Part shown: positions 1-15,579 of the stretch, piece by piece
Layout: each line of letters begins with the position of its first letter
Numbering within the stretch: the stretch's first letter is position 1
Virus record (IMG/VR): IMGVR_UViG_3300030202_000067
Coordinates: 1-21,708 of that record
Length of the DNA stretch: 21,708 nucleotides
Source of the DNA: a virus
Reading direction: 5' to 3' (one strand)
The notes under the pieces: generated by a model
Database searches by the model: none
Seen by the model: only the letters and a program-made list of their open reading frames with translations
Told to the model about the DNA's origin: nothing
Program-made: the position numbers and the translations under genes

Positions 1-633
1 ATGGAGGATAACCTCTATGTTTCTCTCTCTGGTAGATATACTAAAGCTTTGGCTCGTGCAATGGCTTACACAAAACAAGTGAAAGCAGCGTATCCATTAA
101 ATAATGGATTCTCTACTACTTTCTCTTCAGGTGATGGTGTTGCTTTATTTAGCACAGCTCACCCACTTGTAAGTGGCGGAACTAACAGCAACAGACCTTC
201 TTCAGGTGCTGACTTAAATGAAACATCTCTCGAGGATGCTATCATTCAAATCGGTAAATATACTGATGAAAGAGGTCTTAAAATTGCAGCTAGACCAAGA
301 AAACTAATAGTACCATCTGATCTTCAGTTTGTTGCTACTAGACTATTGCAAAGTGACTTCAGAGTCGGAACTTCTGATAATGATATCAATGCAATCAAAA
401 CTAATGGAGTGATTCCAGAAGGTTATGCAGTTAACCACTATTTAACTGATACTAATGCTTTCTTCATCACTACTGATGTTCCTGATGGCATGAAACATTT
501 CGTCAGAAGTCCTATGACTACATCTATGGATGGTGACTTTGACACTGGTAATGTTAGATACAAAGCTAGAGAAAGATATTCCTTTGGAGTATCTGATCCA
601 CTAGGTATCTTTGGATCACCAGGTAGTTCGTAA
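1..633 (+). CDS. Major capsid protein, C-terminal part (cut by window start)
   Basis: This is the C-terminal 210 residues or so of an HK97-fold-type major capsid protein, which builds the icosahedral head. The pattern seen is typical of a marine phage capsid family: an early E-D-N-L-Y segment, S-T-A-H-P-L-V followed by a Gly/Asn/Ser-rich loop, a D-E-R-G-L segment, a basic L-I-V-P-x-x-L strand, D-N-D-I-N-A, and a C-terminal V-R-Y-K-A-R-E-R-Y-S-F-G-V-S-D segment. An ATG occupies bases 1-3. However, family members usually run to 300 or more residues and this segment resembles an internal part of them, so the ATG is probably an internal Met and the gene starts upstream. A strong terminator follows eight bases after the stop, as expected for a very highly expressed capsid gene. 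The assignment rests on remembered family patterns, not an alignment. Confidence 0.8.
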   Translation: MEDNLYVSLSGRYTKALARAMAYTKQVKAAYPLNNGFSTTFSSGDGVALFSTAHPLVSGGTNSNRPSSGADLNETSLEDAIIQIGKYTDERGLKIAARPRKLIVPSDLQFVATRLLQSDFRVGTSDNDINAIKTNGVIPEGYAVNHYLTDTNAFFITTDVPDGMKHFVRSPMTTSMDGDFDTGNVRYKARERYSFGVSDPLGIFGSPGSS

Positions 634-640
634 GAACTTT

Positions 641-670
641 AAGGGAGGCTCGCAAGAGTCTCCCTTTTTT
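641..670 (+). terminator. Rho-independent terminator after the capsid gene
   Basis: Bases 641-651 pair with 656-666 to make an 11-bp stem with one G-U wobble around a GCAA (GNRA-type) tetraloop. A run of six T spans 665-670. It sits eight bases past the capsid stop codon. Partial read-through would set the ratio of capsid to downstream structural transcripts. Confidence 0.9.
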
Positions 671-745
671 CCTTCTAGGGTAATTTTTTTCTATCGACTG
701 ACCTAGCAGACAAGCCAAGACGATAGATTTTAAGGAGACTTAATT
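671..745 (+). promoter_or_regulatory. Folded leader between terminator and next gene
   Basis: This untranslated stretch lies between the capsid terminator and the next start codon. A second T-run spans 684-690. CTATCG (691-696) is the exact complement of CGATAG (721-726), enclosing 24 bases. CTAGG (675-679) can instead pair with CCTAG (702-706), giving a possible alternative fold. An AAGGAG ribosome-binding site follows at 732-737. It may hold a late promoter, an RNA-processing site or a translational control element. I could not recognise a consensus promoter in it. Confidence 0.45.
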
Positions 746-1270
746 ATGGCAAACTCAACTTTTTCAGGACCAGTCAGGTCTGAGAACGGCTTTAAGGTCG
801 TTTCTAAAAATACAAGCACAGGAGCAATATCTACATCCTTTACCCTTGATGGTTCAGGAATGCAAGTAGCACCTGTAGCTTTAGCTGATACTACAGCTAT
901 TTCATTAACAGCAGCAACGCATGGTGGCAGAGTATCAGTTGTACCTGCACTATCAGCTAACTGCACATTAACTTTACCCTCACCTTCAGAAGGAGTTTAC
1001 TTTAAACTTATTTATGGTGGTGCAGCAGAAGAAACTGAAAATCTGATTATCAGCACAGGTTCTAATACTAACTTTTACATTGGTGGTATTATTCATTTAG
1101 ATTCAAATGCAGATAATGTTTCTGTTTATTCTGATGGTAACTCAAATTCCATTTTGACTTTAACTGATTTTGGTTTATTCGAAGTAAACATTTTGGCTAA
1201 AGACTCTACCAATTGGTATATTTGGGGCAATCAAGAAGGTGCAGATGCACCAGCATTCTCTGACGCATAG
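746..1270 (+). CDS. Virion-type structural protein, unknown (174 aa)
   Basis: I do not recognise a named family. It is a 174-residue, Ser/Thr/Asn/Gly-rich, beta-strand-type protein with no signal peptide, no membrane segment and few charges. This composition is typical of head decoration or tail structural proteins. It begins M-A-N-S-T-F-S-G-P-V-R-S-E-N-G-F, a start I associate from memory with the gene following the capsid gene in uncultured marine phages. The start is well supported by AAGGAG eight bases upstream. Its position directly after the capsid terminator and leader suggests an abundant virion protein such as a head decoration protein. That role is inference from position and composition. 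Confidence 0.6.
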   Translation: MANSTFSGPVRSENGFKVVSKNTSTGAISTSFTLDGSGMQVAPVALADTTAISLTAATHGGRVSVVPALSANCTLTLPSPSEGVYFKLIYGGAAEETENLIISTGSNTNFYIGGIIHLDSNADNVSVYSDGNSNSILTLTDFGLFEVNILAKDSTNWYIWGNQEGADAPAFSDA

Positions 1271-1279
1271 GAGTAAATT

Positions 1280-1687
1280 ATGGCAGATGCAGTAACTTCA
1301 CAAACCATCATTGATGGTGAAAGAAACTGTATTATGAAGTTTACCAATGTCAGCGATGGTACTGGCGAATCCGCAGTTGCTAAAGTAGATGTTTCTGCTT
1401 TAAATTCTAATGCAGCAGGTGTAGCTTGCTCAGAAGTTAGAGTTATGCGAGTTAGCCATGCCATCGTTGGTATGTCTGTCCAAATGTTTTTTAATGCTAC
1501 TTCTAATGTTTTACTTATGGAACTTGCAGAAAGTAGTAATGGACATATGGATTTTCAAGACTTTGGTGGTATTCCTAATAATGCAGGAAGTGGTAAAAAT
1601 GGTGACATTTTATTTACCACAAAAGGTCACAGTTCAGGAGACACTTATTCTATCGTTTTAGAGATGGTAAAAGTGTATTCTGATTAA
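1280..1687 (+). CDS. Conserved phage structural protein, unknown (135 aa)
   Basis: This 135-residue protein is predicted to be soluble and beta-rich, with no signal peptide or membrane segment. It begins nine bases after the previous stop behind a GGAG ribosome-binding site. The segment D-G-x-x-N-C-I-M-K-F-T-N-V-S-D-G-T-G-E-S and the ending Y-S-I-V-L-E-M-V-K-V-Y-S-D match my memory of a conserved protein in the head region of uncultured marine phages. No function is known to me. Its place among head genes suggests a virion component. A smaller frame inside it at 1458-1661 is a shadow. Confidence 0.6.
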   Translation: MADAVTSQTIIDGERNCIMKFTNVSDGTGESAVAKVDVSALNSNAAGVACSEVRVMRVSHAIVGMSVQMFFNATSNVLLMELAESSNGHMDFQDFGGIPNNAGSGKNGDILFTTKGHSSGDTYSIVLEMVKVYSD

Positions 1688-1699
1688 TAGGAATTTATT

Positions 1700-2017
1700 A
1701 TGGCTAAAACTAAAAATTATGTAATTTCAGAAACTGGTGAGTTTCCTGCTCAGTACAAAGTTTTACATCTTGATGAAGATGGTATCTACAGACCTGTATT
1801 TGGTCCTGATCCTGATTTAGAAGATGCAAAGCGTAAGTGTGCTGAGATGAACGGAGAAAGGGCTAGAAATGATAAAGGGCAATTAGTTGCTGACGATCCT
1901 TCTACTCCTGATGTTAATGAGGCTTATGTTGGTGGTAAAGCACCAAAGAAAAAAGCCACTAAAAAAGCACCAGCAAAGAAAGCTACAGCTAAAAAGAAAA
2001 CTACTAAGAAAAAGTAG
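1700..2017 (+). CDS. Small protein with histone H1-like Lys/Ala tail (105 aa)
   Basis: The protein has two parts. Residues 1 to about 75 are a mixed-charge domain containing Y-K-V-L-H-L-D-E-D-G and an A-K-R-K-C-A-E-M-N helix. Residues from about 80 to the end are almost purely Lys, Ala and Thr, in repeats such as K-K-A-T-K-K-A-P-A-K-K. That tail resembles eukaryotic H1 and bacterial H1-like proteins and would bind DNA electrostatically. A role in packaged-DNA condensation or as a head-associated protein is inference. The gene begins 12 bases after its neighbour with an AGGAA ribosome-binding site and ends shortly before a strong hairpin, so it closes the first structural block. Confidence 0.6.
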   Translation: MAKTKNYVISETGEFPAQYKVLHLDEDGIYRPVFGPDPDLEDAKRKCAEMNGERARNDKGQLVADDPSTPDVNEAYVGGKAPKKKATKKAPAKKATAKKKTTKKK

Positions 2018-2030
2018 TATCATTTATATT

Positions 2031-2060
2031 TATAATACTCTGGTAAAACGGAGTATTATA
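2031..2060 (+). terminator. Strong hairpin, terminator-like or processing site
   Basis: Bases 2031-2040 pair perfectly with 2051-2060, and 2041/2050 (wobble) and 2042/2049 can extend the stem to 12 pairs around a six-base loop. It starts 14 bases past the stop of the Lys/Ala-tail gene. The following sequence is T-rich but broken (TTTATCTAATTT), so termination may be weak. An RNase cleavage or 3'-end stabilising hairpin is equally possible. Confidence 0.55.
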
Positions 2061-2087
2061 TTTATCTAATTTATAAAAGGAGACAAA

Positions 2088-2312
2088 ATGGCAGGTAAAA
2101 AAACTAAATACATGGCTGGTGGTGGAAAAAACACTAAGTACATGGCTGGCGGTGGGAAAAATTCAAAATATATGGCTGCTGGCGGTATGAAAACTGAAGT
2201 TGGTAAAAAAGCTAAAATTGAGCAATATCAAGATTATGTTAAGAGAATGTTTGGTGGTGGAGTGACTACTAAAGGTTCTTCTGCTGGTGGTCGTAGAGAT
2301 AAAAGATCATAA
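2088..2312 (+). CDS. Small basic protein with KYMAGGG repeats (74 aa)
   Basis: This 74-residue, strongly basic protein opens with three tandem copies of a ten-residue unit of the form K-x-[ST]-K-Y-M-A-[GA]-G-G at residues 5-33. A charged helical middle follows (K-I-E-Q-Y-Q-D-Y-V-K-R-M-F), then a Gly/Lys/Arg-rich end. The start is supported by AAAAGGAG seven bases upstream. I recall KYMAGGG-type repeats in short proteins from uncultured marine phages, but no function. Its place between the head genes and the connector genes, among other Lys-rich small proteins, suggests a DNA- or capsid-associated role. That is inference. Confidence 0.6.
   Translation: MAGKKTKYMAGGGKNTKYMAGGGKNSKYMAAGGMKTEVGKKAKIEQYQDYVKRMFGGGVTTKGSSAGGRRDKRS
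2100..2186 (+). repeat. Three tandem 30-bp coding repeats (KYMAGGG)
   Basis: The repeat unit is ten codons, ending in Lys-Tyr-Met-Ala-Gly-Gly-Gly or a close variant. The three copies are in frame with no insertion. The third copy has Ala for Gly at its third-last residue. Confidence 0.8.
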
Positions 2313-2323
2313 ACAAGTAAATA

Positions 2324-2617
2324 ATGTCTAGAGCAACAAAAGATTCCAGATTAAAAAGAGCTGGAGTCTCTGGATACAATAAACCTAAAAGAACACCTAA
2401 TCATCCTAAAAAGTCACATATAGTTGTGGCAAAAGAGGGTGATAAGGTTAAAACTATACGTTTTGGAGAACAAGGTGCTAGCACAGCAGGTAAACCTAAG
2501 AAAGGTGAATCTGCTCGCATGAAAGCCAAACGTAAATCTTTTAAAGCTAGGCACAGAAAAAATATTAACAAAGGTAAGATGTCAGCAGCTTATTGGGCAA
2601 ATAAAGTAAAATGGTAA
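2324..2617 (+). CDS. Basic DUF6321-like phage protein (97 aa)
   Basis: This is a compact basic protein. Residues from about 16 to the end carry S-G-Y-N-K-P-K-R-T-P-N-H-P-K-K-S-H, then V-V-A-K-E-G-D-K-V-K-T-I-R-F-G, a Gly/Lys linker, S-F-K-A-R-H-x-K-N-I, and the ending S-A-A-Y-W-A-N-K-V-K-W. This is the pattern I remember as the DUF6321 family of cyanophages and other marine phages. Its function is unknown to me. The high positive charge and R-F-G-x-Q-G segment suggest nucleic-acid or virion association. No clear Shine-Dalgarno sequence precedes the ATG. The stop overlaps the start of the next mini-gene by seven bases, implying coupled translation. Confidence 0.75.
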   Translation: MSRATKDSRLKRAGVSGYNKPKRTPNHPKKSHIVVAKEGDKVKTIRFGEQGASTAGKPKKGESARMKAKRKSFKARHRKNINKGKMSAAYWANKVKW

Positions 2618-2727
2618 TTAGCAGAAGTAATATGAAAAACCAAATTCTTAAAGCTCCGTCTTCTAAGAAAAAGGTATCAAAAACAAAGTCTGGTATAACT
2701 ATAACTAGAATTAAAAAGGATAAATAA
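2611..2727 (+). CDS. Tiny basic protein, probable mini-gene (38 aa)
   Basis: The ATG at 2611 overlaps the last seven bases of the preceding gene, and the TAA at 2725-2727 overlaps the ATG of the next by one base. The frame therefore fills exactly the gap between two supported genes. The product has 38 residues and is very basic. It contains R-S-N-M-K-N-Q-I-L-K-A-P, a K-K-K-V-S-K-T-K stretch and the ending I-T-R-I-K-K-D-K. Short proteins of this kind (R-S-N-M-K followed by Pro and a Lys run) occur at this position in other marine phages as far as I recall. The function is unknown. The exact double overlap is the main evidence that it is real. Confidence 0.6.
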   Translation: MVISRSNMKNQILKAPSSKKKVSKTKSGITITRIKKDK

Positions 2728-3422
2728 TGGCAACGAGTGGTACTCATACATTTACTTTAGACATAAGCGATATTATGGAAGAAGCTTATGATATAGCGGG
2801 AGTTGAATTACGCTCTGGCTATAGCTATATGAGTGCTAAACGTGCTTTAAATTTAGTTTTTTTAGAATGGCAAAACAAAGGATTAAATCTTTGGACTGTA
2901 GAGCAAGGTACAGTTAGTTTAACTTCTGGTACAAATACATATAGCTTAGATAGTTCAGCTATTGAAGTTATTGATGCTTTTATTAGAACTGATGCTGGCA
3001 ATGTAGATAAACAGTTTGATCAAAGGTTAAATAGAATATCTAGAACTGAATACAATCATCAAGCTAATAAATTAAATAAAGCTAAACCAACACAGTTTTT
3101 TGTAGATAAAAATACAGGAACTTTACAAATTGTTTTGTGGTCAACACCAGATGACGCAGACACATATACTTTGGTTTATGACTATATACAAAAAATAGAA
3201 GATGTAGGAACAGTAGCTACAAATAATGCTGACGTTCCATCAAGATATTTACCATGCTTATCATATGCTTTGGCATACTCTTTAGCTAGTAAAAATCCTG
3301 AATCTGCACAAAGAATACCTTTTATAAAACAAAGATATGATGAACTTTGGAATGAAGTTAGTGATGCAGATAGAGAAAGAGCACCTGTAAAGTTTGTTCC
3401 TGATTTAGCTACATATAGATAA
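2727..3422 (+). CDS. Head-tail connector / tail accessory protein (P22 gp4-like)
   Basis: This 231-residue soluble protein has an N-terminal helical segment (I-M-E-E-A-Y-D-I-A-G-V-E-L-R-S-G-Y). A helix with A-L-N-L-V-F-L-E-W-Q-N-K-G-L-N-L-W follows, then a beta-rich middle (Y-S-L-D, I-S-R-T-E-Y) and a C-terminal helical part (P-S-R-Y-L-P-C-L-S-Y-A-L-A-Y) ending with D-R-E-R-A-P. This pattern matches the adaptor proteins of podovirus-type phages related to P22 gp4, which bind under the portal and close the head. The start overlaps the previous stop (TAATG). Family naming is from memory. The alternative is another head-completion adaptor. Confidence 0.65.
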   Translation: MATSGTHTFTLDISDIMEEAYDIAGVELRSGYSYMSAKRALNLVFLEWQNKGLNLWTVEQGTVSLTSGTNTYSLDSSAIEVIDAFIRTDAGNVDKQFDQRLNRISRTEYNHQANKLNKAKPTQFFVDKNTGTLQIVLWSTPDDADTYTLVYDYIQKIEDVGTVATNNADVPSRYLPCLSYALAYSLASKNPESAQRIPFIKQRYDELWNEVSDADRERAPVKFVPDLATYR

Positions 3423-3763
3423 TGGCATACGCAAGAGGTAAAAGAGCATTAGGTCAATGTGACAGATGTGGCTTTACATATAAGTTAAATGAACTCCAGT
3501 ATGAAATATTTGATAGCAAACGAAATGGGTTGCGTGTTTGTTATGAATGTTTAGATGAAGATCAACCACAATTAAAACTTGGAGAATTAAATATAGTTGA
3601 TCCGCAAAATTTATATAACCCTAGAGTAGATACAGGGGAAAAAGAATCAACCACTTATTATGCTTTTGATCCTGTAGGAGGAGGTGTTACTGAGTTTGGT
3701 TCAAGTACAATGGGTTTGGATATCACAGCAGAGTTAGGTAAAGTTAAGGTAGTAATAACATGA
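3422..3763 (+). CDS. Small protein with N-terminal zinc ribbon (113 aa)
   Basis: Two C-x-x-C pairs at C13/C16 (C-D-R-C) and C40/C43 (C-Y-E-C), 23 residues apart, form a likely zinc ribbon. The remainder contains L-N-I-V-D-P-Q-N-L-Y-N-P-R and a Gly-rich strand region. Related marine-phage proteins at this place, as I recall, begin similarly but often lack the cysteines. It sits between two connector-type genes with one-base overlap upstream (TAATG) and an ATGA overlap downstream, so it is probably a head-tail joining or tail protein. The metal-binding claim follows from cysteine spacing only. Confidence 0.6.
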   Translation: MAYARGKRALGQCDRCGFTYKLNELQYEIFDSKRNGLRVCYECLDEDQPQLKLGELNIVDPQNLYNPRVDTGEKESTTYYAFDPVGGGVTEFGSSTMGLDITAELGKVKVVIT

Positions 3764-4404
3764 GTTGGACATTTACAACATTAAAAACAGCTATACAAGA
3801 TTATACTCAAAATACTGAGTCTACTTTTGTTACAAATTTACCTACATTAATAGTACAAGCAGAAAACAGAATAGTTAAATCTGTTGAACTACCTAACTTT
3901 AGAAAAAATGTAACTGGTACATTAACTTCTAGTAGTCCTTATTTATCGACACCAACAGATTATTTATATCCTTTTTCTTTGGCTGTTTTAGATAGTAGTA
4001 GTAATTATGAATATTTATTAAATAAAGATGTAAGTTTTATAAGACAATCCTTTCCATCTGCAAGCACTACAGGAACTCCTAAGTTTTATGCACAGTTTGA
4101 TGATGATACTTTTATCATAGCACCAACACCTGATTCTAATTACACAGTTGAGTTGCACTATTTTTATATACCTACATCCATAACCACTTCATCAGATGGA
4201 ACATCATGGTTAGGTACAAATGCCACAGAAGCTTTGCTTTATGCTAGTTTAGTAGAAGCTTATACTTTTATGAAAGGCGAACCTGATATTCTATCTAACT
4301 ATGAAAAAAGATTCCAAGAAGCATTACAAAGACTAACACTTGAATCAGATGGTTATAATCGTAAAGATGCTTTTAGAGATGGACAAAGGAAAGTAAATGT
4401 TTAG
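3760..4404 (+). CDS. Phage adaptor / tail tube-region protein (214 aa)
   Basis: The 214-residue protein starts with W-T-F-T-T-L-K-T-A-I-Q-D-Y-T and an L-I-V-Q-A-E-N-R-I helix. It continues with Y-L-S-T-P-T-D-Y-L-Y-P-F-S-L, a strand pair around F-I-I-A-P-T-P and Y-T-V-E-L-H-Y-F-Y, and a C-terminal helical region rich in Glu, Tyr and Arg. This order is what I know from phage adaptor proteins of podovirus-like marine phages, which sit between portal ring and tail. It overlaps its upstream neighbour by ATGA and the next gene by eight bases, so translation is probably coupled through the connector block. The exact structural role is inference. Confidence 0.65.
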   Translation: MSWTFTTLKTAIQDYTQNTESTFVTNLPTLIVQAENRIVKSVELPNFRKNVTGTLTSSSPYLSTPTDYLYPFSLAVLDSSSNYEYLLNKDVSFIRQSFPSASTTGTPKFYAQFDDDTFIIAPTPDSNYTVELHYFYIPTSITTSSDGTSWLGTNATEALLYASLVEAYTFMKGEPDILSNYEKRFQEALQRLTLESDGYNRKDAFRDGQRKVNV

Positions 4405-4687
4405 TGTTGATATTGAATCAACTATTGGGCAGGTTGCTGTACAAACTACACAAAACAAAGGCTTGAGTCCTGAGTATTGGACTGAAAGAATTTTAGAAAG
4501 ATTAGTGTCAGTAAGCGATAATGCTGATCCTATGGTAAAAGCACAAGCAGATGCTTTTAAAGATCAAATAGAAAAAGTTATATTAATTTACATGAAACAA
4601 GCTATTTTAAGTGACAGATCAACTGTAGCAGGTATGCTAGAGAAACAAGGTCATAAAGAAATGGCAGATATTATAAGGAGACTATAA
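4397..4687 (+). CDS. Small conserved helical phage protein (96 aa)
   Basis: This acidic, mostly helical 96-residue protein contains V-Q-T-T-Q-N-K-G-L-S-P-E, S-V-S-D-N-A-D-P, A-F-K-D-Q-I-E-K-V, and the ending M-A-D-I-I-R-R-L. From memory it belongs to a family widely seen next to tail genes in cyanophages and pelagiphages, without known function. The ATG overlaps the preceding gene by eight bases. The stop overlaps the next start by one base, and an AAGGAG at 4675-4680 inside this gene serves that next gene. Confidence 0.65.
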   Translation: MFSVDIESTIGQVAVQTTQNKGLSPEYWTERILERLVSVSDNADPMVKAQADAFKDQIEKVILIYMKQAILSDRSTVAGMLEKQGHKEMADIIRRL

Positions 4688-5118
4688 TGGCTATATCACA
4701 AGCAATGTGTACTTCTTTCAAGAAAGAGCTCTTGGAAGGTGTTCATAATTTTAAAAACTCAGGCGGAAGCACATTTAATTTGGCACTATATACAAGTAGT
4801 GCTAGTTTAGGTGCTGGTACAACTGCTTACACTACTTCTAACGAAGCTAGTGGAACTAACTACACAGCTAAAGGTGCTTCTTTAACAAGAGTAGACCCTA
4901 CTACTTCTGGAACTACAGCATTTACTGACTTTTCAGATTTAACTTTTAGCTCTGCTACTATTACTGCTAATGGTGCATTAATATTTAATGACTCAGCTTC
5001 TGGCGATCCAGCAGTATGTGTACTAGCATTTGGAGGAGATAAAACTTCTACAAATGGTGATTTTACAATTCAATTTCCAACAGCAGACGCATCAAACGCA
5101 ATTATTAGAATAGCTTAG
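4687..5118 (+). CDS. Conserved virion / tail protein (143 aa)
   Basis: This is a beta-rich protein with M-A-I-S-Q-A-M-C-x-S-F-K-K-E, a Leu-Ala-Leu-Tyr-Thr-Ser-Ser strand, T-T-A-Y-T-T-S-N-E, G-T-T-A-F-T-D-F-S-D, F-x-I-Q-F-P-T-A-D-A-S-N-A-I-I-R-I-A at the end, and D-K-T-S-T-N-G-D before it. I recall this as a very common structural protein of marine cyanophages and pelagiphages, near the tail-fibre genes. It has no signal peptide or membrane segment. AAGGAG lies six bases before the start. The precise place in the virion is not known to me. Confidence 0.7.
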   Translation: MAISQAMCTSFKKELLEGVHNFKNSGGSTFNLALYTSSASLGAGTTAYTTSNEASGTNYTAKGASLTRVDPTTSGTTAFTDFSDLTFSSATITANGALIFNDSASGDPAVCVLAFGGDKTSTNGDFTIQFPTADASNAIIRIA

Positions 5119-5124
5119 TTTTAA

Positions 5125-5823
5125 ATGGCTAATATTACAGGCTGGGGTCGAGGTACTTGGGGTGAAGCTACTTGGGGCGAAGCTGCTCCAATTGTAGTTA
5201 CAGGGGTAGCTGGTACAACAGCATTAGGCTCTGAGACTGTAATAGCAAAAGCATTAGTAACTGTATCAGGTAACGCTGGTGTATCTGCATTAGGTAACAC
5301 AGTTGTTGAAGGAGATGCAGTTCAAGGAGTATCTGCGGTAACATCAACATCTGGACTTGGTGATGAAAGTGTCGTTTGTACTGCAAACATAGCTGTAACA
5401 GGAAATGCAGGAACAACAGCTTTAGGTTCAGAAACTGTTATAGCAGAAGCAAATACATCTGTAACAGGAAATACGGCTACAACAGCAGAAGGTACAGTAA
5501 TTGTACAAGCTATAGCAGTTGTTGGTGTTAGTGCAGTAGCTTCAACACTTGGTTTAGGTGACGAAGTTGTTATATGTGAAAACAATTTAGATGTTACAGG
5601 AGTATCAGGTACTGGTGAAATAGGTGATGTTACAAGTGTAAGTAAAGCTACAGTAGCTGTAACAAATGTAACAGGAACTGGTTTTGTAAATGAAGTAAAT
5701 GTTTGGGGTTTAGTTGATGATAGTCAAACAGCAAACTATTCAGAAGTATCTACAACACAAACACCTAATTATAGTGAAGTTTCAACAACGCAAACCCCTG
5801 ATTGGGAAGAAATTGCAGCTTAA
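5125..5823 (+). CDS. Repetitive tail structural protein, GWGRGTWGE type (232 aa)
   Basis: The N-terminus, G-W-G-R-G-T-W-G-E-A-T-W-G-E, is a Trp/Gly motif that I recall from tail proteins of many marine phages. Residues from about 23 to 190 are about eight degenerate repeats of roughly 20-24 residues. Units of the form V-T-G-x-A-G-T-T-A-L-G-S-E-T-V-I-A alternate with units of the form V-S-A-V-x-S-T-x-G-L-G-D-E. The last 35 residues hold three short repeats ending T-Q-T-P-x-[YW], probably an interaction tail. The product is neutral to acidic, beta-repeat and soluble, suggesting an extended tail or fibre-associated protein. It starts six bases after the previous stop without a clear ribosome-binding site. 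Confidence 0.65.
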   Translation: MANITGWGRGTWGEATWGEAAPIVVTGVAGTTALGSETVIAKALVTVSGNAGVSALGNTVVEGDAVQGVSAVTSTSGLGDESVVCTANIAVTGNAGTTALGSETVIAEANTSVTGNTATTAEGTVIVQAIAVVGVSAVASTLGLGDEVVICENNLDVTGVSGTGEIGDVTSVSKATVAVTNVTGTGFVNEVNVWGLVDDSQTANYSEVSTTQTPNYSEVSTTQTPDWEEIAA

Positions 5824-5851
5824 TTATTATATAATTTTTAGAGGAAAATAA

Positions 5852-8800
5852 ATGGCAAGCACATACGTAAATAACTTAAGACTCAACGAAATGGCGACAG
5901 GTGATGCGTCAGGAACTTGGGGTACAGTTACAAATACCAACTTGGAATTGATTGGTGAAGCACTTGGTTACAATACGCAAGACTGCTTTAGTTCTGACGC
6001 AGATGCTACTACAACAGTAGCAGACGGAGCTACTGATCCAGCTAGAGCCTTTTATTTTAAGGTTACTTCATCAGCTACTTTAAGTGCTACAAGAACACTT
6101 ACTATTGCCCCTAATACTGTATCCAGGGTAATGGTTATTGAGAACGCAACTACAGGTTCGCAATCTATTAACATTTCTCAAGGTTCAGGTGCTAATGTAA
6201 CAATAACCACAGGGCAAGTCAGAGTTGTATATTTAGATGGTGCTGGCTCTGGTGCTGCGGTTGTAGATTCATTTACAGATTTAGGTTTGTCAGGAACAAC
6301 CACAACAGGTGCACTAACTGTTAGTGGAAACTTATCCGTAGACGGCGGAACAATTAAACTAGACGGAAACTATCCTACTGGCACAGAAAACGTAGCTTTA
6401 GGTAATGGTGCGTTAGATGATGGAAGCCTAAGTGGGGATTACAATACCGCTATAGGTAATAATAGTTTGACTGCCAATACATCAGGTAACAGAAATGTTG
6501 GTGTTGGTGATGGTTCATTAGAGGGAAATACTACAGGAGCAAATAATGTTGCTGTCGGTAGAGCAGCCGTAGATGCAAACACAACAGGAAGTTTTAATGT
6601 TGGTATAGGTACAAGTGCTTTAGGTTCTAATACAACTGCATCAAACAACGTGGGAGTAGGTTATTTTGCTTTAACAGCAAACACTACAGGCACAGACAAC
6701 GTAGCCGTAGGTTCAAATGCCCTAGATGCTAACACTACAGGAAACGATAATACAGGTATTGGTGATAATGCTTTGGGTGCTAATACCACAGGAAGAGACA
6801 ATACTGCGGTAGGTTCAAATGCGTTAGGAGCAAATACTGATGCTGTAGAAAACACAGCAGTAGGTGTTGGTTCACTCGCATCAAACACTACAGGAGACGA
6901 TAATGTTGCTGTAGGTTATCAAGCTTTAAATGACAATACTACAGGTACAAATAACGTAGCGATTGGTTCAGCTGCATTAGATGTTGCAACGACAGCTGCT
7001 AATAATACAGCAGTTGGTTTTGCTGCTTTAGGAGCAACAACTACAGCGGGAGGAAACACCGCAGTAGGTTCGATAGCTTTGAATGACAATACAACTGGAG
7101 CAGAAAATACTGCCGTTGGACAAAACGCTATGGGCTTGAACACTACTGGTTCTAGTAATGTTGCGGTAGGACAAGGCTCTTTAGAAGCAAACACGACAGC
7201 TACAGCTAATACTGCTGTTGGACACGATTCTTTGAAAAACAATACAACTGGTGCTGAAAACGTAGCAGTTGGTAAAGGTGCTTTAACTGGTAATACAACA
7301 GCATCTAACAATACAGCAGTTGGAAGAAGTGCTTTAAATGCAAACACAGTTGGTGCTACTAATACCGCAGTAGGTAGAAGTGCTTTATCTGATGATACTA
7401 AAGGTAGTAAAAGTACAGCGGTTGGTTATCAAGCTTTATCTACACAAAACTTTACGTCTGCTACAGATAGTAATAATACAGCAGTTGGATACAATGCAGG
7501 GTCACTAATTACTACAGGAATTGACAATACTGTAGTAGGAACAGATGCTTTAGATGCTAATACTACTGGTTCATATAACACCGCAGTTGGTACAAGTTCT
7601 TTAGGAGCAAATACTACAGGATCGTATAACACAGGATTAGGTTATAAAGCTTTAGAAGATAATACAACTGGTACAAGAAATACAGGTGTTGGAAGGCTTT
7701 CAATAGGAAATAATACTACAGGAAGTTATAACACAGGAATAGGCTACTCTTCATTAGCAGCAAATACAACTGCTGATAACAATACTGCATTAGGATATGG
7801 AACTTTAGCTGTAAACACTACAGGAATAGAAAACGTAGCCGTAGGCGCAGATGCGTTAGACGCAAACACCACAGGAGATTATAATACTGCTGTAGGTGGT
7901 AATGCTCTTACTGCTGCTACAACAGGAGATAGTAGTACAGGAATTGGTTATAACGCTTTAGCTGCACAAACCACAGGACAATATAATACAGCAGTTGGAA
8001 GTGCTGCTTTGGCAAGTGTTACTACAGCAGATAACAACACAGCAGTTGGTAGAAATGCTTTATTAGTAGTCACTACAGGTAACGAAACAGTAGCTGTTGG
8101 TGCAAGTGCAGGACTTTCACAAACTACAGGTGGTGAAAATGTTTTAGTAGGTTTTAAAGCGGGGCAGTCTATAACAACTGCGGGTAATAATACTTTAATT
8201 GGTTGGAAGACTGCGGAAAATAATGCAACACAAGCATATCTTACAGCAGTAGGACATTCTGCATTGCAAGCAAATACATCTGGTCAAAGAGGAACTGCTG
8301 TTGGTGCGTTTTGTTTAGATGCTAACACGACAGGTAATTTTAACGTAGCTGTCGGTTATGCTGCTTTAAGTGGCAATACAACAGGTCCACAAAATACTGG
8401 TGTAGGCTATGAAGCTTTGTTGGCTCAAACAACAGCAACTGGTAACACAGGAATAGGTTTTAGAGCAGGGCATGACATTACTACAGGTGGAAATAATATA
8501 GCAATCGGTAGTGAAGCCTATGCACTAGGAACAACAGCGACATATAATTTAGCTATAGGAAATAATACTTTAGATGCAATAACAGGGGGTTCTTACAATA
8601 TTGCTATTGGTAATATTTCAATGGGTAAACAAAACACTACTACTGGTAATGTGTTTAATACAGCAGTTGGTCATTTTTCTTTGTCAGAATCTACAACAGG
8701 AAATGACAATACCTGTATGGGTTATGCTTCTTTATTAGACCTAACAACCGCAACAGGAAATACAGCTTTTGGTAATTATTCAGGAGAAAATATTACCACT

Positions 8801-9388
8801 GGTTACTCAAATGCTTTATTTGGTCGTGATTCAGGTAGTGTCTTAACTACAGGATATGGCAATAGTATGTTGGGCTATGGCACTAATGCAAGTGCAAACA
8901 ATGGAGAGTTTCAAATTGTTTTAGGAAATGGTGTAACAGGTCATGGTGATAATAAACTTACTTTTGGTCAAGGTACAGGTGATAATAGGGTTTATAACTC
9001 TTATACAGTAAATGCTTCTTGGACAAGAGTTTCTGATGAAAGATATAAAGAAAACATCAAACCTAATACAGATTGTGGTTTGGCATTTATAAATGATTTG
9101 AATCCTATAACCTTCACATGGAAGGCAAAAGCAGACATAGACTCAAGCTTACCCGACTATGATGAAACTCAATTAAAACCAAAGTACGATAGAAAGTTGT
9201 ATGGTTTGATAGCACAAGAAGTTAAAGAAGCTATTGATAAACACGGCATTGAAGATTTTGGCGGTTGGGATGTAGAAGAAAATACAGGCATACAATCTGT
9301 TTCACAAGAAATGTTTATACATCCTCTTATTAAAGCAGTTCAAGAACTTTCAGCAGAAGTAGAAGAACTTAAGAAAAAACTAAACTGA
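5852..9388 (+). CDS. Long tail fibre: YadA-like repeats plus S74 chaperone
   Basis: This 1178-residue host-recognition fibre has three parts. Residues 1 to about 175 form an N-terminal virion-attachment region (S-T-Y-V-N-N-L-R-L-N-E-M-A-T-G-D-A-S-G-T-W-G), a start shared by many marine phage fibres. Residues 180 to about 1027 are about 50 copies of a 17-residue unit, N-[TV]-[AG]-[VI]-G-x-x-[AS]-L-x-x-N-T-T-G-x-x, resembling the left-handed beta-roll of YadA-type adhesin heads. Residues 1061-1178 match the peptidase S74 intramolecular chaperone. They begin S-D-E-R-Y-K-E-N-I, and Ser1061 with the nearby Lys is the expected self-cleavage site. L-Y-G-L-I-A-Q-E-V, H-P-L-I-K-A-V-Q-E-L and a coiled-coil end follow. 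The fibre is presumably a trimer that sheds its last 118 residues. GAGG lies nine bases upstream of the start. Antisense open frames across it reflect the repeat codon pattern. Confidence 0.9.
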   Translation: MASTYVNNLRLNEMATGDASGTWGTVTNTNLELIGEALGYNTQDCFSSDADATTTVADGATDPARAFYFKVTSSATLSATRTLTIAPNTVSRVMVIENATTGSQSINISQGSGANVTITTGQVRVVYLDGAGSGAAVVDSFTDLGLSGTTTTGALTVSGNLSVDGGTIKLDGNYPTGTENVALGNGALDDGSLSGDYNTAIGNNSLTANTSGNRNVGVGDGSLEGNTTGANNVAVGRAAVDANTTGSFNVGIGTSALGSNTTASNNVGVGYFALTANTTGTDNVAVGSNALDANTTGNDNTGIGDNALGANTTGRDNTAVGSNALGANTDAVENTAVGVGSLASNTTGDDNVAVGYQALNDNTTGTNNVAIGSAALDVATTAANNTAVGFAALGATTTAGGNTAVGSIALNDNTTGAENTAVGQNAMGLNTTGSSNVAVGQGSLEANTTATANTAVGHDSLKNNTTGAENVAVGKGALTGNTTASNNTAVGRSALNANTVGATNTAVGRSALSDDTKGSKSTAVGYQALSTQNFTSATDSNNTAVGYNAGSLITTGIDNTVVGTDALDANTTGSYNTAVGTSSLGANTTGSYNTGLGYKALEDNTTGTRNTGVGRLSIGNNTTGSYNTGIGYSSLAANTTADNNTALGYGTLAVNTTGIENVAVGADALDANTTGDYNTAVGGNALTAATTGDSSTGIGYNALAAQTTGQYNTAVGSAALASVTTADNNTAVGRNALLVVTTGNETVAVGASAGLSQTTGGENVLVGFKAGQSITTAGNNTLIGWKTAENNATQAYLTAVGHSALQANTSGQRGTAVGAFCLDANTTGNFNVAVGYAALSGNTTGPQNTGVGYEALLAQTTATGNTGIGFRAGHDITTGGNNIAIGSEAYALGTTATYNLAIGNNTLDAITGGSYNIAIGNISMGKQNTTTGNVFNTAVGHFSLSESTTGNDNTCMGYASLLDLTTATGNTAFGNYSGENITTGYSNALFGRDSGSVLTTGYGNSMLGYGTNASANNGEFQIVLGNGVTGHGDNKLTFGQGTGDNRVYNSYTVNASWTRVSDERYKENIKPNTDCGLAFINDLNPITFTWKAKADIDSSLPDYDETQLKPKYDRKLYGLIAQEVKEAIDKHGIEDFGGWDVEENTGIQSVSQEMFIHPLIKAVQELSAEVEELKKKLN
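6389..8932 (+). repeat. About 50 in-frame 51-bp repeats in the tail-fibre gene
   Basis: The protein period is 17 residues over residues 180-1027, and 848 residues divided by 17 gives about 50. Counting the [VIL]-G turn motif gives the same number. A few units are longer, for example near residues 545 and 935. At DNA level the copies are diverged with varied synonymous codons, so it is an old repeat, not a recent tandem expansion. Confidence 0.85.
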
Positions 9389-9395
9389 GATATTT

Positions 9396-9692
9396 ATGAC
9401 TATAGAAATTAAAACAGTAGCACAAACCCTAGCATCAGCTATGGATTCAGTTAATACAATTAATTACATAAAAACAGGTATTGGACATGATGGTGAATCT
9501 TATAGAGGAACAACAGGAATGTCGCAATCTGAAATAAACACTATGGTAGATAGTAATGTAAAGCATTTAGAAAGCGTACTAGCTTATGACGGCACTAAAC
9601 GCTATCCAGATGTTGCTGGTTCTTCAGTAGATAAATCTGCTTATACAACAGCTATTACTACAGGCAAAAATTACATAATCGCAAATTCATAA
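9396..9692 (+). CDS. Small conserved protein, paralogue A of a tandem pair (98 aa)
   Basis: This 98-residue soluble protein is related to the next gene. Both contain T-V-A-x-x-L near the N-terminus followed by D-S-V-x-x-I-N. Both have a central I-N-x-x-V-x-x-N-V-x-H-L-E-x-x-L-A-Y block and a shared ending T-A-I-T-T-G-K-x-Y-I-x-A-N-S. The charge is mildly acidic, with no membrane segment or signal. The start lies seven bases after the fibre stop with no strong ribosome-binding site. Its function is unknown. The position directly behind the tail fibre suggests a tail accessory protein. Confidence 0.6.
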   Translation: MTIEIKTVAQTLASAMDSVNTINYIKTGIGHDGESYRGTTGMSQSEINTMVDSNVKHLESVLAYDGTKRYPDVAGSSVDKSAYTTAITTGKNYIIANS

Positions 9693-9702
9693 GGAGAATA
9701 AT

Positions 9703-10026
9703 ATGGCTAAAACGGTAGCAGAAGTATTAACAGCAGCAACAGATAGCGTAACTGTTATTAATGACATTAATACTAATGGAAATAAATCACTTTATGCGGG
9801 CGGTGGAACTGATGACGATGGTAACGCTGTAGCAGGTGACTGGTCACAAGATGATATAAACGAAGTAGTACAACGTAATGTTGACCACTTAGAAATTATA
9901 TTAGCTTACGAACCTGTTGATTCAGATGACGATACACCTAACGTAAAAGGATCGTCTTCAAGCAAAAAAACTGCTTGCAGTACCGCTATAACTACAGGTA
10001 AAGCTTATATATCAGCTAATTCATAA
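9703..10026 (+). CDS. Small conserved protein, paralogue B of a tandem pair (107 aa)
   Basis: This is the second member of a tandem duplicated pair. It shares with its upstream neighbour the I-N-E-V-V-x-x-N-V-D-H-L-E-I-I-L-A-Y block and the ending T-A-I-T-T-G-K-A-Y-I-S-A-N-S. It differs in two acidic loops: one around G-G-G-T-D-D-D-G-N-A, the other around D-S-D-D-D-T. The acidic patches could bind divalent metal, but no known motif is present. It has a good AAGGAG ribosome-binding site, unlike copy A, so it may be made in larger amounts. Its function is not recognised. Confidence 0.6.
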   Translation: MAKTVAEVLTAATDSVTVINDINTNGNKSLYAGGGTDDDGNAVAGDWSQDDINEVVQRNVDHLEIILAYEPVDSDDDTPNVKGSSSSKKTACSTAITTGKAYISANS

Positions 10027-12281: not shown

Positions 12282-12631
12282 TGGAACAAGCAATCCAATT
12301 TATTAATGAAGTAGGTTTTCCAATAGCTGCTGCATTAGGACTAGGTTTTTTTATATGGAAGCTGATTAATAGAATTATTGACGGCATGGAAACTAAACTC
12401 GATGTACTAGATGATAAAGTTGCAGACCAGATAGCTCAAATGGAAGACCGCCTTGGTACTAAATTAGATTCACAACATGGTATCTTGGTAGCTTTGATAG
12501 ACAGAGTGCGTAGTTTAGATAACGAAATTATTCGTCAAGACACTCTTATAAAAACAATACTAGGTGTACCTCAACTAATAGATAGCAACAAGATTGCAAA
12601 GGCAGATAGAGATGATCAAAGAAAAGACTAA
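12281..12631 (+). CDS. Membrane-anchored coiled-coil protein (116 aa)
   Basis: A single hydrophobic segment spans about residues 11-30 (V-G-F-P-I-A-A-A-L-G-L-G-F-F-I-W), followed by a long coiled coil from about 33 to 90 and a charged end. Proteins of this build, with G-F-P-I-A-A-A-L-G-L near the start, are common in marine phages and are sometimes annotated as holin- or lysis-related. It precedes csgF with a one-base overlap. It could therefore be the last gene of the phage block or the first of the envelope cassette. It is a second holin candidate, but no family match is certain. Confidence 0.6.
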   Translation: MEQAIQFINEVGFPIAAALGLGFFIWKLINRIIDGMETKLDVLDDKVADQIAQMEDRLGTKLDSQHGILVALIDRVRSLDNEIIRQDTLIKTILGVPQLIDSNKIAKADRDDQRKD

Positions 12632-13095
12632 TGACTGACTGGGATAAAATAGTAGCAATATTAGGTATTATATTAATATTGTTAGTTGTTACTTTATCTG
12701 TAGCTGCTGATGAAATGGTGCATCAGTTTAAAAACCCTAGCTTTTCAGGTGTTGGTACATCTAGTCACTATCTAACTATAGAAAACCAAGAGTTTTCAAG
12801 AAAAGAAGCAATACGAGAAGAGATCAAAGCTTACCAAGAAGAACTAGAACGTGAAGCTGAAAACACAACATTAGCTAGGTTTATACGCAACCTAGAAAGT
12901 AGAATATACGCACAACTTAGCAGACAGTTAGTAGATAGTTTGTTTGGTGATACTGCATCTGAGTTTGGCATTTTAGAGCTAGAAGGCAACACCATAGAAT
13001 ACAGAGTAGAAGACGACAAAGTAACGCTTATAATTACAGATGAAGAAGGCAATACAACAGAAATTACTGTACCTCTTGGTTCTTTTACTTTCTAG
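12631..13095 (+). CDS. csgF: CsgF-like curli assembly protein
   Basis: In bacteria CsgF binds the outer-membrane CsgG pore at the cell-surface side and couples curlin export to fibre nucleation. This 154-residue protein has a hydrophobic export signal (residues 6-26, cleavage near V-A-A/D). The mature N-terminus, M-V-H-Q-F-K-N-P-S-F-S-G, aligns with the pore-binding M-T-F-Q-F-R-N-P-N-F-G-G of E. coli CsgF. A long helical region follows (58-78, then L-A-R-F-I-R-N-L-E-S-R-I-Y-A-Q-L-S-R-Q-L-V). The C-terminal beta strands I-E-Y-R-V-E-D-D-K-V-T-L-I-I-T and T-T-E-I-T-V end the protein. Order and length (138 in E. coli) agree with the family. Its 3' end overlaps csgG by 56 bases. No csgE, csgC or csgD was found nearby. 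Confidence 0.9.
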   Translation: MTDWDKIVAILGIILILLVVTLSVAADEMVHQFKNPSFSGVGTSSHYLTIENQEFSRKEAIREEIKAYQEELEREAENTTLARFIRNLESRIYAQLSRQLVDSLFGDTASEFGILELEGNTIEYRVEDDKVTLIITDEEGNTTEITVPLGSFTF

Positions 13096-13846
13096 TTGTT
13101 CATTAATTATACCCCCATTAGATAATGGGTTGCCTCCGATAAGAAATATTGAGCCAGCAGAAGTTGGTTCTTTATTAACTAAATTAGCAGAAGTGCCTAA
13201 ACCTAAACGCAAGCCTGTAGTGGCTGTATATCCTTCTTCGTTTAAAGATAATACAGGACAGCGTAGAAGTAATAGTCAATATGCTAGTTTTAGCACAGCA
13301 GTAACACAAGCACCTGACGCATATCTTATTAGAGCATTACAACACTCTAATGTATTTGATGTAGTAGAGCGTACAGGATTAGATAATCTTACTAAAGAAC
13401 GACAGATTATACGTACAACTCGTGAGTCATTTGATGAAAAACAAAAGGTAAAACCTTTATTGTTTGCTGGTTTATTAATGGAAGGTGGTGTTGTAAGTTA
13501 TGAAACCAATGTTAAATCAGGTGGTGCTGGTGCAAGATACTTAGGTATAGGTGGATCAAAACAATATAGACAGGACTCAGTTACTATATCTTTACGTACA
13601 GTATCAGTAAGCACAGGTAAAATATTGCTAGAAGTGTTAGTAACTAAGTCAATTCTAAGTGCATCTATTTCTTCAGATGTGTTCAGATTTTATACAAATA
13701 ATACTGAATTAGTTGAAATTGAAAGTGGTATAGTAGAAAATGAATCTATAAATATTGCTTTGCAGATGGCTATTGAGTTAGCAGTTCTACAAACAATAGA
13801 GGAGGGTTATGAAAAAGGTTATTGGAAACAAAAAGACCACACTTAA
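13040..13846 (+). CDS. csgG: CsgG-like outer-membrane secretion pore lipoprotein
   Basis: CsgG forms a nonameric outer-membrane channel that exports curlin subunits. This 268-residue protein starts with a lipoprotein signal ending in L17-S18-S19-C20, so Cys20 should be lipidated. The core matches E. coli CsgG in order: V-A-V-Y, D-N-T-G-Q (70-74), F-S-T-A-V-x-Q (84-90), V-V-E-R-x-G-L-x-N-L, E-R-Q-I-I-R, M-E-G, the strongly conserved N-V-K-S-G-G-A-G-A-R-Y-L-G-I-G (157-171), V-S-T-G-K-I-L, S-I-L-S and V-F-R-F. Phe84 matches the constriction phenylalanine (Phe56 of mature E. coli CsgG); the neighbouring Tyr and Asn appear replaced. The start at 13040 is required because the signal peptide lies inside the csgF overlap. 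It has no obvious ribosome-binding site. Confidence 0.95.
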   Translation: MKKAIQQKLLYLLVLLLSSCSLIIPPLDNGLPPIRNIEPAEVGSLLTKLAEVPKPKRKPVVAVYPSSFKDNTGQRRSNSQYASFSTAVTQAPDAYLIRALQHSNVFDVVERTGLDNLTKERQIIRTTRESFDEKQKVKPLLFAGLLMEGGVVSYETNVKSGGAGARYLGIGGSKQYRQDSVTISLRTVSVSTGKILLEVLVTKSILSASISSDVFRFYTNNTELVEIESGIVENESINIALQMAIELAVLQTIEEGYEKGYWKQKDHT

Positions 13847-14549
13847 TTTATTGTTTCTATTAATATCTTTTAGCGTATATACAGCTGACAACGAGGTATA
13901 TATAGATCAGTCAGGTGCAACATCAAACTTAGATATAGAACAAGTTGGCGGTGGTGGTAATATTATTGGAGGTGCTGACGCTACAGCTGGTGCTTCTAAT
14001 ATGACTCCATTAGACCTAGATGGTGCAACTATGACGCTAGATATATTACAGAAAGGTGCATCAAATAAATTTCTTGGTGATATATGGGCAGATACTTACA
14101 CAGGTTACTTCTCATTTATAGGTGATAGTAATACATTCAATATGTCTACTGATGAAACCAATGCTACAGGTGCAGATGGTTCTAATGTAAACGTACAGGT
14201 TACAGGTAATACAAATACTATGACACTCAATCATGCCATGACTGCACTAGCAGCTAATTTAGACTTAGATTGGATTATACAAGGTGGAGGTAATAGTATT
14301 ACAGCATCAATAGATGTAGATGGTGCTACTAACTACATGGATATTGATGGTGATGATAATACTGTAACTTATGATGGTGATGGATATGCTGGTGGTTATT
14401 TCTATCTAGATCATACAGGTGGCAACAGAACTTTTAATATAGATCAGGAATCTACATCTGATAATGATTGGCTCAAGATTACATCTGTTGGCTCTAATGG
14501 TACAGTTTGCGTTACTCAGTCAGACGCAACAACTTCATTCGTCTGTTGA
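13809..14549 (+). CDS. Secreted curlin-like repeat protein (246 aa)
   Basis: The protein has an N-terminal export signal (M-K-K-V-I-G-N-K-K-T, then L-N-L-L-F-L-L-I-S-F-S-V-Y-T, cleavage near A26). About eight beta-strand repeats of alternating hydrophobic residues follow, with central G-x-x-N turns. Examples are Y-I-D-Q-S-G-A-T-S-N-L-D-I-E-Q-V-G, L-D-I-L-Q-K-G-A-S-N, F-S-F-I-G-D-S-N-T-F-N-M, W-I-I-Q-G-G-G-N-S-I and I-D-G-D-D-N-T-V-T. They resemble the Q-x-G-x-x-N curlin repeat but are more diverged, with longer Asp/Thr-rich spacers. Two cysteines (234, 246) at the end could form a disulfide. It is the likely CsgG substrate: an amyloid or beta-solenoid displayed outside the cell. A GAGGAGG ribosome-binding site lies in csgG, which it overlaps by 38 bases. 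Confidence 0.75.
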   Translation: MKKVIGNKKTTLNLLFLLISFSVYTADNEVYIDQSGATSNLDIEQVGGGGNIIGGADATAGASNMTPLDLDGATMTLDILQKGASNKFLGDIWADTYTGYFSFIGDSNTFNMSTDETNATGADGSNVNVQVTGNTNTMTLNHAMTALAANLDLDWIIQGGGNSITASIDVDGATNYMDIDGDDNTVTYDGDGYAGGYFYLDHTGGNRTFNIDQESTSDNDWLKITSVGSNGTVCVTQSDATTSFVC

Positions 14550-15579
14550 TATAGGTTCTATATCTGAACTTAGAGGCAATGCACAAGTCTTAAGAGACAA
14601 ACCTTATGGTGCTGAACTAGAGTTTAACATCCAACAAATGGATGATGTCCGCACAGAAGCGGGCAGAGTTGCTATAACTTTTGAAGATAGTTCTACAGTT
14701 AAATTAACTGAACATTCTAAGTTGGTCATAGATGAATACATCTACGACCCTGACCCATCTAAATCTAAGATGGCACTTAAGTTTGCAAGTGGTACTGCAC
14801 GTTTTATTACAGGCAAATTTAATAATAAAAGTAACATATCTATTAAAACACCTACTGCTGATATTGCTATTCGTGGTACAGATTTTACTTGTACAGTAGA
14901 TGAACTAGGTAGAAGTCTAGTTATATTGTTGCCTGACGAGAACGGATTGTCTAGTGGTGAAATAGTCGTAGCTACAGCTATGGGTAGCGTTACATTAAAC
15001 AAACCTTATCAAGCCACCACAGTATCTGTATATGAAAACAATCCTACTAAACCTGTTACGTTAGATATATCACTAGACTTAATAGATAATATGTTGATTG
15101 TTAATCCTCCGCAAGAAACAGAACAATCAATAGAAGAAACAAGAACACAATCATCTGTGGATTATTTAGAGTTTGATGATCTTGATATTGATTATCTGAA
15201 TGAAGACTTTCTTGATGCAGAGGCAGACCTAGAGTTTACAGAACTAGATGTTAATTATTTAGATGTAAACTTTCTAGAAGATTTATTGAATGTAATAGAT
15301 GCACTTGCCATATCAAAAGAAGAGGATCAATTAAAACAAGGTGGAGTAGGTATTCGTATAGTTGGTACAGAAATAGGGCAAGATAAAGATACACAGATTA
15401 CAACTATAATTACAGGGCAAACTATAAGTCTAAATAGAACAGTAAATCAAAGTGCAAGATTAAATCTTGATGGCTCTAATAGCTATACAATTATACTTAT
15501 ACAAGATGGTGTTGCTAATACAGTTAAAATTAATGGTGGTTCATCTACAACAATAACAATTAAACAAGGTTCAGGATGA
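14464..15579 (+). CDS. FecR-domain protein with acidic linker and curlin-like C-terminus
   Basis: Residues 1-27 form a plausible export signal (Arg5, then L-H-L-L-A-L-M-V-Q-F-A-L-L-S). Residues 30 to about 190 are a FecR domain: G-S-I-S-E-L-R-G-N-A-Q-V at its start and the signature T-P-T-A-D-I-A-I-R-G-T-D-F at 129-141. FecR domains are periplasmic signalling modules that often accompany CHASE2 cyclases in bacteria. Residues 232-281 are an acidic Leu/Asp repeat linker with several [DN]-Y-L-[DN] units. Residues 297-371 return to alternating beta strands with Q-D-G-V-A-N-T-V-K-I (347-356) and K-Q-G-S-G at the end, resembling the curlin repeats of the previous gene. The FecR domain begins exactly where the upstream gene stops, so the signal must lie in the 86-base overlap. 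A frameshift fusion is a less likely alternative. The stop overlaps the cyclase start. Confidence 0.85.
   Translation: MIGSRLHLLALMVQFALLSQTQQLHSSVDIGSISELRGNAQVLRDKPYGAELEFNIQQMDDVRTEAGRVAITFEDSSTVKLTEHSKLVIDEYIYDPDPSKSKMALKFASGTARFITGKFNNKSNISIKTPTADIAIRGTDFTCTVDELGRSLVILLPDENGLSSGEIVVATAMGSVTLNKPYQATTVSVYENNPTKPVTLDISLDLIDNMLIVNPPQETEQSIEETRTQSSVDYLEFDDLDIDYLNEDFLDAEADLEFTELDVNYLDVNFLEDLLNVIDALAISKEEDQLKQGGVGIRIVGTEIGQDKDTQITTIITGQTISLNRTVNQSARLNLDGSNSYTIILIQDGVANTVKINGGSSTTITIKQGSG

Follow-up and report, generated by a model that had tools for sequence, protein, structure and literature searches.

The open reading frame at nt 5,852–9,388 of a virus record of 21,708 bases (the whole stretch analysed, hereafter the window) encodes, as judged from the annotation of its relatives, a marine phage tail fibre, the central part of which is a roll of 50 short repeat units. 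In comparisons between near-identical phages, the roll and the C-terminal chaperone appear to be swapped together as one cassette. The protein is probably a receptor-binding fibre that is anchored to the virion, assembles as a trimeric beta-solenoid, is cleaved by its S74 domain and has its roll exchanged as a cassette. This kind of fibre is already known; the points of interest are that the roll appears to be exchanged whole and that the structure models disagree on handedness.

Tail fibre gene and neighbouring genes

The fibre gene (1178 aa) is a single ORF lying, with all its parts, on the plus strand. Whole-protein relatives in annotated phages were found in 121 records, every one below 60% identity, under the names tail fibre, tail structural protein and tail spike. 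These names, matches to PHROG tail and virion families and the S74 chaperone support the reading of the gene as one for a tail fibre, as had been proposed in a preliminary description of this DNA.

The protein begins with a conserved N-terminal domain (residues 1–141, nt 5,852–6,274), which presumably anchors the fibre to the virion. This domain was modelled poorly by AlphaFold2 (block pLDDT 25–56 for residues 1–140) and was assigned no fold. It is followed by a linker (residues 142–179, nt 6,275–6,388) whose length and sequence vary among relatives, as seen in the alignment and the breakpoints, and then by the roll (residues 180–1037, nt 6,389–8,962). A short cap (residues 1038–1060, nt 8,963–9,031) leads from the roll to a Peptidase_S74 intramolecular chaperone (nt 9,032–9,385), which runs from the SDxRxK motif at Ser1061 to a long C-terminal helix.

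The start of the record encodes the C-terminal part of a capsid protein that is 62–66% identical to its counterparts in Pelagibacter phages HTVC023P and HTVC027P and 70% identical to those in Synechococcus and Planktothrix phages. In Roseobacter phage CRP-902, the fibre gene likewise lies a few genes downstream of the capsid gene, and the N-terminal domain of its product is 56% identical to that of the fibre here over 139 residues. CRP-902 and HTVC023P share part of the fibre N-terminal domain, and the proteins checked in these phages had no 17-residue units.

Directly after the fibre gene are two ORFs that resemble each other, one of 98 aa (nt 9,396–9,692, plus strand) and the next of 107 aa (nt 9,703–10,026). 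The former lies inside the stretch that is unmatched in a close relative, L002, and the match to L002 restarts only at its end. Preceding the fibre gene is a 232-aa protein (nt 5,125–5,823) with short repeats of its own, such as TTALGSETVIA, and with no PHROG or Pfam match. Further downstream (nt 12,631–17,342) is a curli (type VIII secretion) island comprising CsgF, CsgG, a secreted protein, FecR and a CHASE2-adenylate cyclase. The secreted protein (nt 13,809–14,549) has a signal-like start and no match in Pfam or PHROG; its position between CsgG and FecR is compatible with a curlin subunit, and it may be a curlin repeat protein. Curli islands in pelagiphages are already known (PMC9599517).

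Repeat anatomy of the roll

The roll consists of 50 uninterrupted units, listed individually, which cover 858 residues with the consensus N-T-A-V-G-x-x-A-L-x-A-N-T-T-G-x-x. Unit length was exactly 17 residues in 47 of the 50, the exceptions being unit 1 (nt 6,389; 18 residues), unit 21 (nt 7,412–7,474; 21 residues) and unit 44 (nt 8,597–8,656; 20 residues). About 50 units of constant 17-residue period had been noticed at nt 6,389–8,932; number and period held, and the last unit was found to end at nt 8,962. Autocorrelation of residues 151–1040 was 0.434, 0.394 and 0.381 at lags 17, 34 and 51, respectively, and about 0.05–0.15 at other lags. A 17-column scoring matrix detected 48 units in the protein (50 being counted by eye) and a mean of 0.125, with a maximum of 1, in 40 shuffled sequences; trained on one half, it recovered 23 of 28 and 22 of 22 units of the other half. 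An earlier permissive detector, giving 54 units versus a mean of 17 across 30 shuffles, was dropped.

Column 5 is Gly in 50/50 units. When 644 standard units from the window and its relatives were pooled, the entropy of this column was 0.03 bits, and columns 6, 7, 10, 16 and 17, the presumed outer face, were the most variable (3.3–3.7 bits). Charged residues are nearly confined to columns 6, 7, 10, 11, 16 and 17, with 52 acidic and 20 basic residues in the roll and an estimated pI of 4.1. It had been suggested that the few longer units act as hinges. This was unsupported, as two of the three are extended within the loop, by four residues in unit 21 (ALSTQNFTSATDSN) and by three in unit 44, and long loops like that of unit 21 recur many times in one relative (L023).

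Age and turnover of the units

DNA identity between units averaged 0.52, with a highest value of 0.78. In the window, identical residues of different units shared a codon at a rate of 0.469, which is no more than chance, since codon usage in the rest of the window predicts 0.493. Over 25 fibres in which 12 or more units were detected, counting both members of two near-identical pairs, this rate was 0.439 for adjacent units (lag 1) and 0.440 for lags of 6 or more, so that neighbours had no excess. Silent sites thus bear no trace of recent copying, which argues that selection on the protein keeps the units alike. By this codon evidence the units are old, and the earlier reading of diverged codons under a selected protein pattern was upheld. 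Recent single-unit tandem duplication in the window was rejected, since no pair exceeded 0.78 DNA identity and no rise occurred at short lags. An apparent avoidance of the same codon between neighbouring units of the window (0.42) was gone when the 25 fibres were tested.

The only rise in these 25 fibres was a slight one at lag 4 (0.464 vs 0.440), in agreement with the four-unit, 72-residue period of L023, in which residues 209–976 follow a super-period of 17+17+17+21 residues about ten times. A 279-nt piece of roll is common to L018 and L021 (85.7%) at an offset of 510 nt, which equals exactly ten units; for L012 and L013 the common piece is 292 nt long (91.8%) and the offset 276 nt. From such patterns, some gain or loss of blocks in the rolls is possible. 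The preliminary description had raised evolution of length by unit gain and loss; repeat number does differ among relatives (12–57), with single recent duplications rejected in the window and block changes possible.

Exchange of the roll and chaperone among relatives

Relatives were retrieved by the N-terminal domain alone, and the best 80 of 566 confirmed were used, giving, with the window, 81 ORFs, 53 of which were complete. At least 10 units were present in 20 of the complete ORFs and fewer than 3 in the other 33, with none between; one base domain therefore bears many shafts, the roll being one option. The 20 roll fibres (two near-identical pairs included) had 12–57 detected units, the longest having at least 57.

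Over nt 1–6,521 of the window, identity with L002 is 97.4%; similarity is then lost at the roll start, the fitted breakpoint lying 11 nt past it. Inside the roll only repeat-level matches of 64–70% were seen, and identity returns from nt 9,682 (91.9%). The block replaced comprises the roll, the cap, the S74 domain and the 98-aa ORF at nt 9,396.

Breakpoints were compared in 45 pairs alike in N-terminal DNA, taken from 28 fibres with at least 6 units. In 16 pairs they lay close to the detected roll start, at most 30 nt upstream or 55 nt downstream of it, and in 23 they lay further upstream, in the linker or the last part of the N-terminal domain. The remaining 6 showed no real break or no fit (L014/L015, L051/L061, L076/L079, in which L079 is cut, L037/L039, and two pairs with L062); an automatic tally of 40 pairs with a drop takes in L076/L079. 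In 39/39 pairs with a break, similarity reached at most about 55 nt into the roll. With 16 and 23 of the 45 pairs in the two classes, there are two usual places of exchange, only one of which is the roll start.

Units with 35–52% identity were also found in bacteria, on eight contigs (six Bacteroidota, one Kapaibacterium and one Acidobacteria). Most of these ORFs, two of which extend past the retrieved stretch, open with an apparent signal peptide. The unit is thus old and common to phages and bacteria, and probably giant viruses.

The S74 chaperone and proposed mode of action

In a whole-protein Pfam scan up to E 10, Peptidase_S74 (PF13884; residues 1061–1132, E 3.3e-12, 46.9 bits) was the sole family found, and no YadA membrane anchor was detected; a second scoring gave 52.8 bits against a curated cut-off of 22. 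The start of the S74 domain is marked by the serine of the SDxRxK motif, here Ser1061. This serine and the following Asp, Arg and Lys were invariant in 16/16 aligned C-termini, drawn from the set of 20 complete fibres that have 10 or more units after L015 and L061 (near copies), L023 and L027 were excluded. In the AlphaFold2 model, the S74 part contains a long C-terminal helix and superposes on the intramolecular chaperone 3gw6 with Z 9.5 over 109 residues (rmsd 3.0). The motif was present in 19 of these 20 fibres and in 5 of the 33 complete ones with fewer than 3 units, so roll and S74 usually occur together. The sole roll fibre without the motif, L027, has a C-terminus of different sequence. 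S74-type chaperones are described as serving trimerisation and maturation and as cutting themselves after the serine (PMC10579305). Presence of this domain suggests that the fibre is a trimer, and cleavage at Ser1061 would be expected.

From the last detected unit to the S74 serine there are 41–76 residues in 17/19 fibres and 108 and 148 in the remaining two, and part of these residues is still layer-like. As this stretch is so short in most of the fibres, a separate tip seems to be lacking in the mature fibre, and on this basis the roll is proposed to be both rod and adhesive surface, as in adhesin heads. The following mode of action is proposed. The N-terminal domain would attach the fibre to the virion, and three chains, side by side, would form a long thin beta-solenoid with one turn per 17-residue unit, the N-T-A-V-G and A-L residues pointing mostly inward and variable columns 6, 7, 10, 16 and 17 outward. 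The S74 domain would initiate trimerisation from the C-terminus and then release itself by cleavage at Ser1061. The remaining rod would have about 50 layers and, at the rise of 4.8 Å per layer seen in adhesin head rolls, a length of about 24 nm. The roll would form shaft and distal end and would probably contact the receptor itself, and exchange of the cassette, from roll start to gene end, among close relatives would alter rod length and surface together.

The roll had been regarded as a rigid shaft. As its only role this is doubtful, because little separate tip is left once the chaperone is cut off. Nevertheless, that the roll serves as a rigid spacer only, with the receptor bound by the last layers, the cap or another protein, is a serious alternative, which we hold to be somewhat short of an even chance. 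The last layers and cap are indeed the parts that deviate most from the unit consensus, and cap and chaperone travel with the roll in the cassette. On the other hand, the 41–76 residues between the detected roll and the cut site leave small space for a domain, and the presumed outer columns are the most variable along the entire roll. As for the more specific proposal that receptors are bound by the bare roll itself and by no tip domain, with host specificity reset by exchange of the whole roll, length included, as a cassette starting at the first unit or just before it, we advance it tentatively and regard it as rather less than probable. If the roll binds, host-range prediction for such marine phages has to be based on the surface of the repeats instead of on a search for a tip. 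Natural rods of 12–57 layers on one conserved base are usable for relating fibre length and surface to host choice.

Fold and handedness

AlphaFold2 was applied to residues 879–1178 with 16 sequences (mean pLDDT 84.4) and to residues 1–400 with 12 sequences (mean pLDDT 65.2; roll blocks 71–92 at residues 181–370 and 58–75 beyond). The end-of-roll part (model residues 1–171) superposed best on left-handed adhesin heads, namely those of CbpF (Z 14.8, rmsd 2.5, 146 aligned), BpaC (Z 14.7, rmsd 2.4, 140 aligned), BoaA (Z 14.1, rmsd 2.8, 131 aligned) and AtaA (Z 13.9, rmsd 2.7, 139 aligned). Acyltransferase helices, of the left-handed kind, came close behind (Z up to 13.6); the match therefore indicates the left-handed class more than the adhesin family. 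Best matches of the residues 1–400 model were right-handed tailspikes and lyases, with the Sf6 tailspike at Z 16.0 (rmsd 2.6, 217 aligned). Superpositions drew only on Foldseek candidates, among which the absence of a fold is uninformative, and Foldseek returned no PDB match at E ≤0.001 for either model. In a viral structure library, the end model had 84 matches at E ≤0.001, many of them phage proteins with S74 or chaperone in their names, along with some from giant viruses; among the 50 matches listed, some had rmsd of 2.9–4.9 over about 170–210 columns and many had rmsd above 10.

The handedness is thus contradictory, the roll start being modelled as right-handed and the roll end as left-handed, both confidently, and units of one kind can hardly adopt both. 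For repeats, AlphaFold2 is reported to yield confident yet false beta-solenoids, in a paper whose text does not mention handedness (PMC11795689). The assignment of opposite handedness to the two ends of one repeat array provides a natural benchmark.

Sequence searches gave weak hints. Pfam YadA_head (PF05658) scored 13.3 bits, below its cut-off of 25, and was absent from the whole-protein scan up to E 10. When 75 segments were scanned, it matched 4 (best E 9.3e-4), and the left-handed helices of EIF2B and GLGC matched 3 and 1, respectively; MgpC, an unrelated family, matched 19 (best E 0.015), and because unrelated families score similar E-values, the left-handed family hints are weak. No match was obtained in an NCBIfam scan or, up to E 1, in a phmmer search of the fibre against solved structures. 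A profile of the 75 segments gave two weak matches to solved structures up to E 10 (E 0.065 and 0.67), both to gamma-carbonic-anhydrase-like chains, named CA3 and CAG1. Chains of gamma-carbonic anhydrases are left-handed helices.

On the models, the repeats likely form a beta-solenoid, which on balance is predicted to be left-handed. A right-handed parallel beta-helix resembling P22/Sf6-type tailspikes is what the residues 1–400 model suggests (Z up to 16.0), and FhaB-like proteins of Ostreococcus viruses are predicted to be right-handed (PMC12906663); against this, the last-units model gives a left-handed roll and the weak YadA_head, EIF2B, GLGC and gamma-carbonic-anhydrase-like hints point the same way, and we consider a right-handed helix unlikely. 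Disorder, or a functionless low-complexity expansion, is very improbable even with the upward bias of AlphaFold2 confidence for repeats (PMC11795689), since the codons are saturated while the protein pattern is strict, with Gly in 50/50 units, and the pattern recurs in 20/53 complete relatives and, at 40–52% identity, in Bacteroidota proteins.

The label YadA-like given in the preliminary description stands in part. The invariant Gly, the T/V-A-V/I-G strand, which fits the published head rules, and the Z of 14–15 for the end model agree with it; the subthreshold YadA_head score, a layer of 17 and not 14–15 residues and the right-handed model of the first units do not.

Comparison with known systems

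No published description of this 50-unit fibre was found in the openly accessible literature. A pelagiphage fibre described in 2014 is likewise marine and has a YadA-like (3S6L_A) C-terminal region and S74, but its N-terminal domain is of T7 type, unlike that of the fibre here (PMC3909814). In that metagenome paper, recruitment to this one fibre drops in the YadA-like C-terminal region, which corresponds to the present cassette pattern at lower resolution (PMC3909814).

The bacterial repeat proteins (L087–L094), mostly from Bacteroidota and some having S74, contain the same 17-residue unit, at 35–52% identity, and SDxRxK in 3/8, and mostly carry a signal-peptide-like N-terminus instead of the phage domain. 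The mature parts of the K1F tailspike and the T5 L-shaped fibre have a fold other than that of the fibre here. Both proteins (K1F as 3GW6) possess, as here, a C-terminal self-cleaving trimerisation domain (PMC10579305).

The heads of the adhesins YadA, BpaC, BoaA, UspA1 and AtaA resemble the roll in their invariant Gly, T/V before an inner V/I, loop insertions at one layer position and long roll (PMC9543794). When Gly5 was set to layer position 8 (G@8) and the columns were mapped by eye onto the published numbering, T/V of column 2 fell on position 5, V/I of column 4 on position 7 and G of column 15 on position 1, with the three extra residues between positions 14 and 1, the published place of insertions (PMC9543794). 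They differ in having a layer of 14 residues (15 in UspA1) versus 17 here (PMC9543794), in a sequence homology to the roll that is below significance, and in a bacterial outer-membrane anchor, which the fibre here lacks, having the S74 chaperone instead. The roll had been called far longer than the usual adhesin head; this holds only partly, as the BpaC head has 42 layers, about 20 nm at a rise of 4.8 Å (PMC9543794), and one relative of the fibre has at least 57 units. If receptor binding by the bare roll is true, phage fibre and adhesin head rolls would work by one principle, in which a long rod of repeats presents a variable outer surface.
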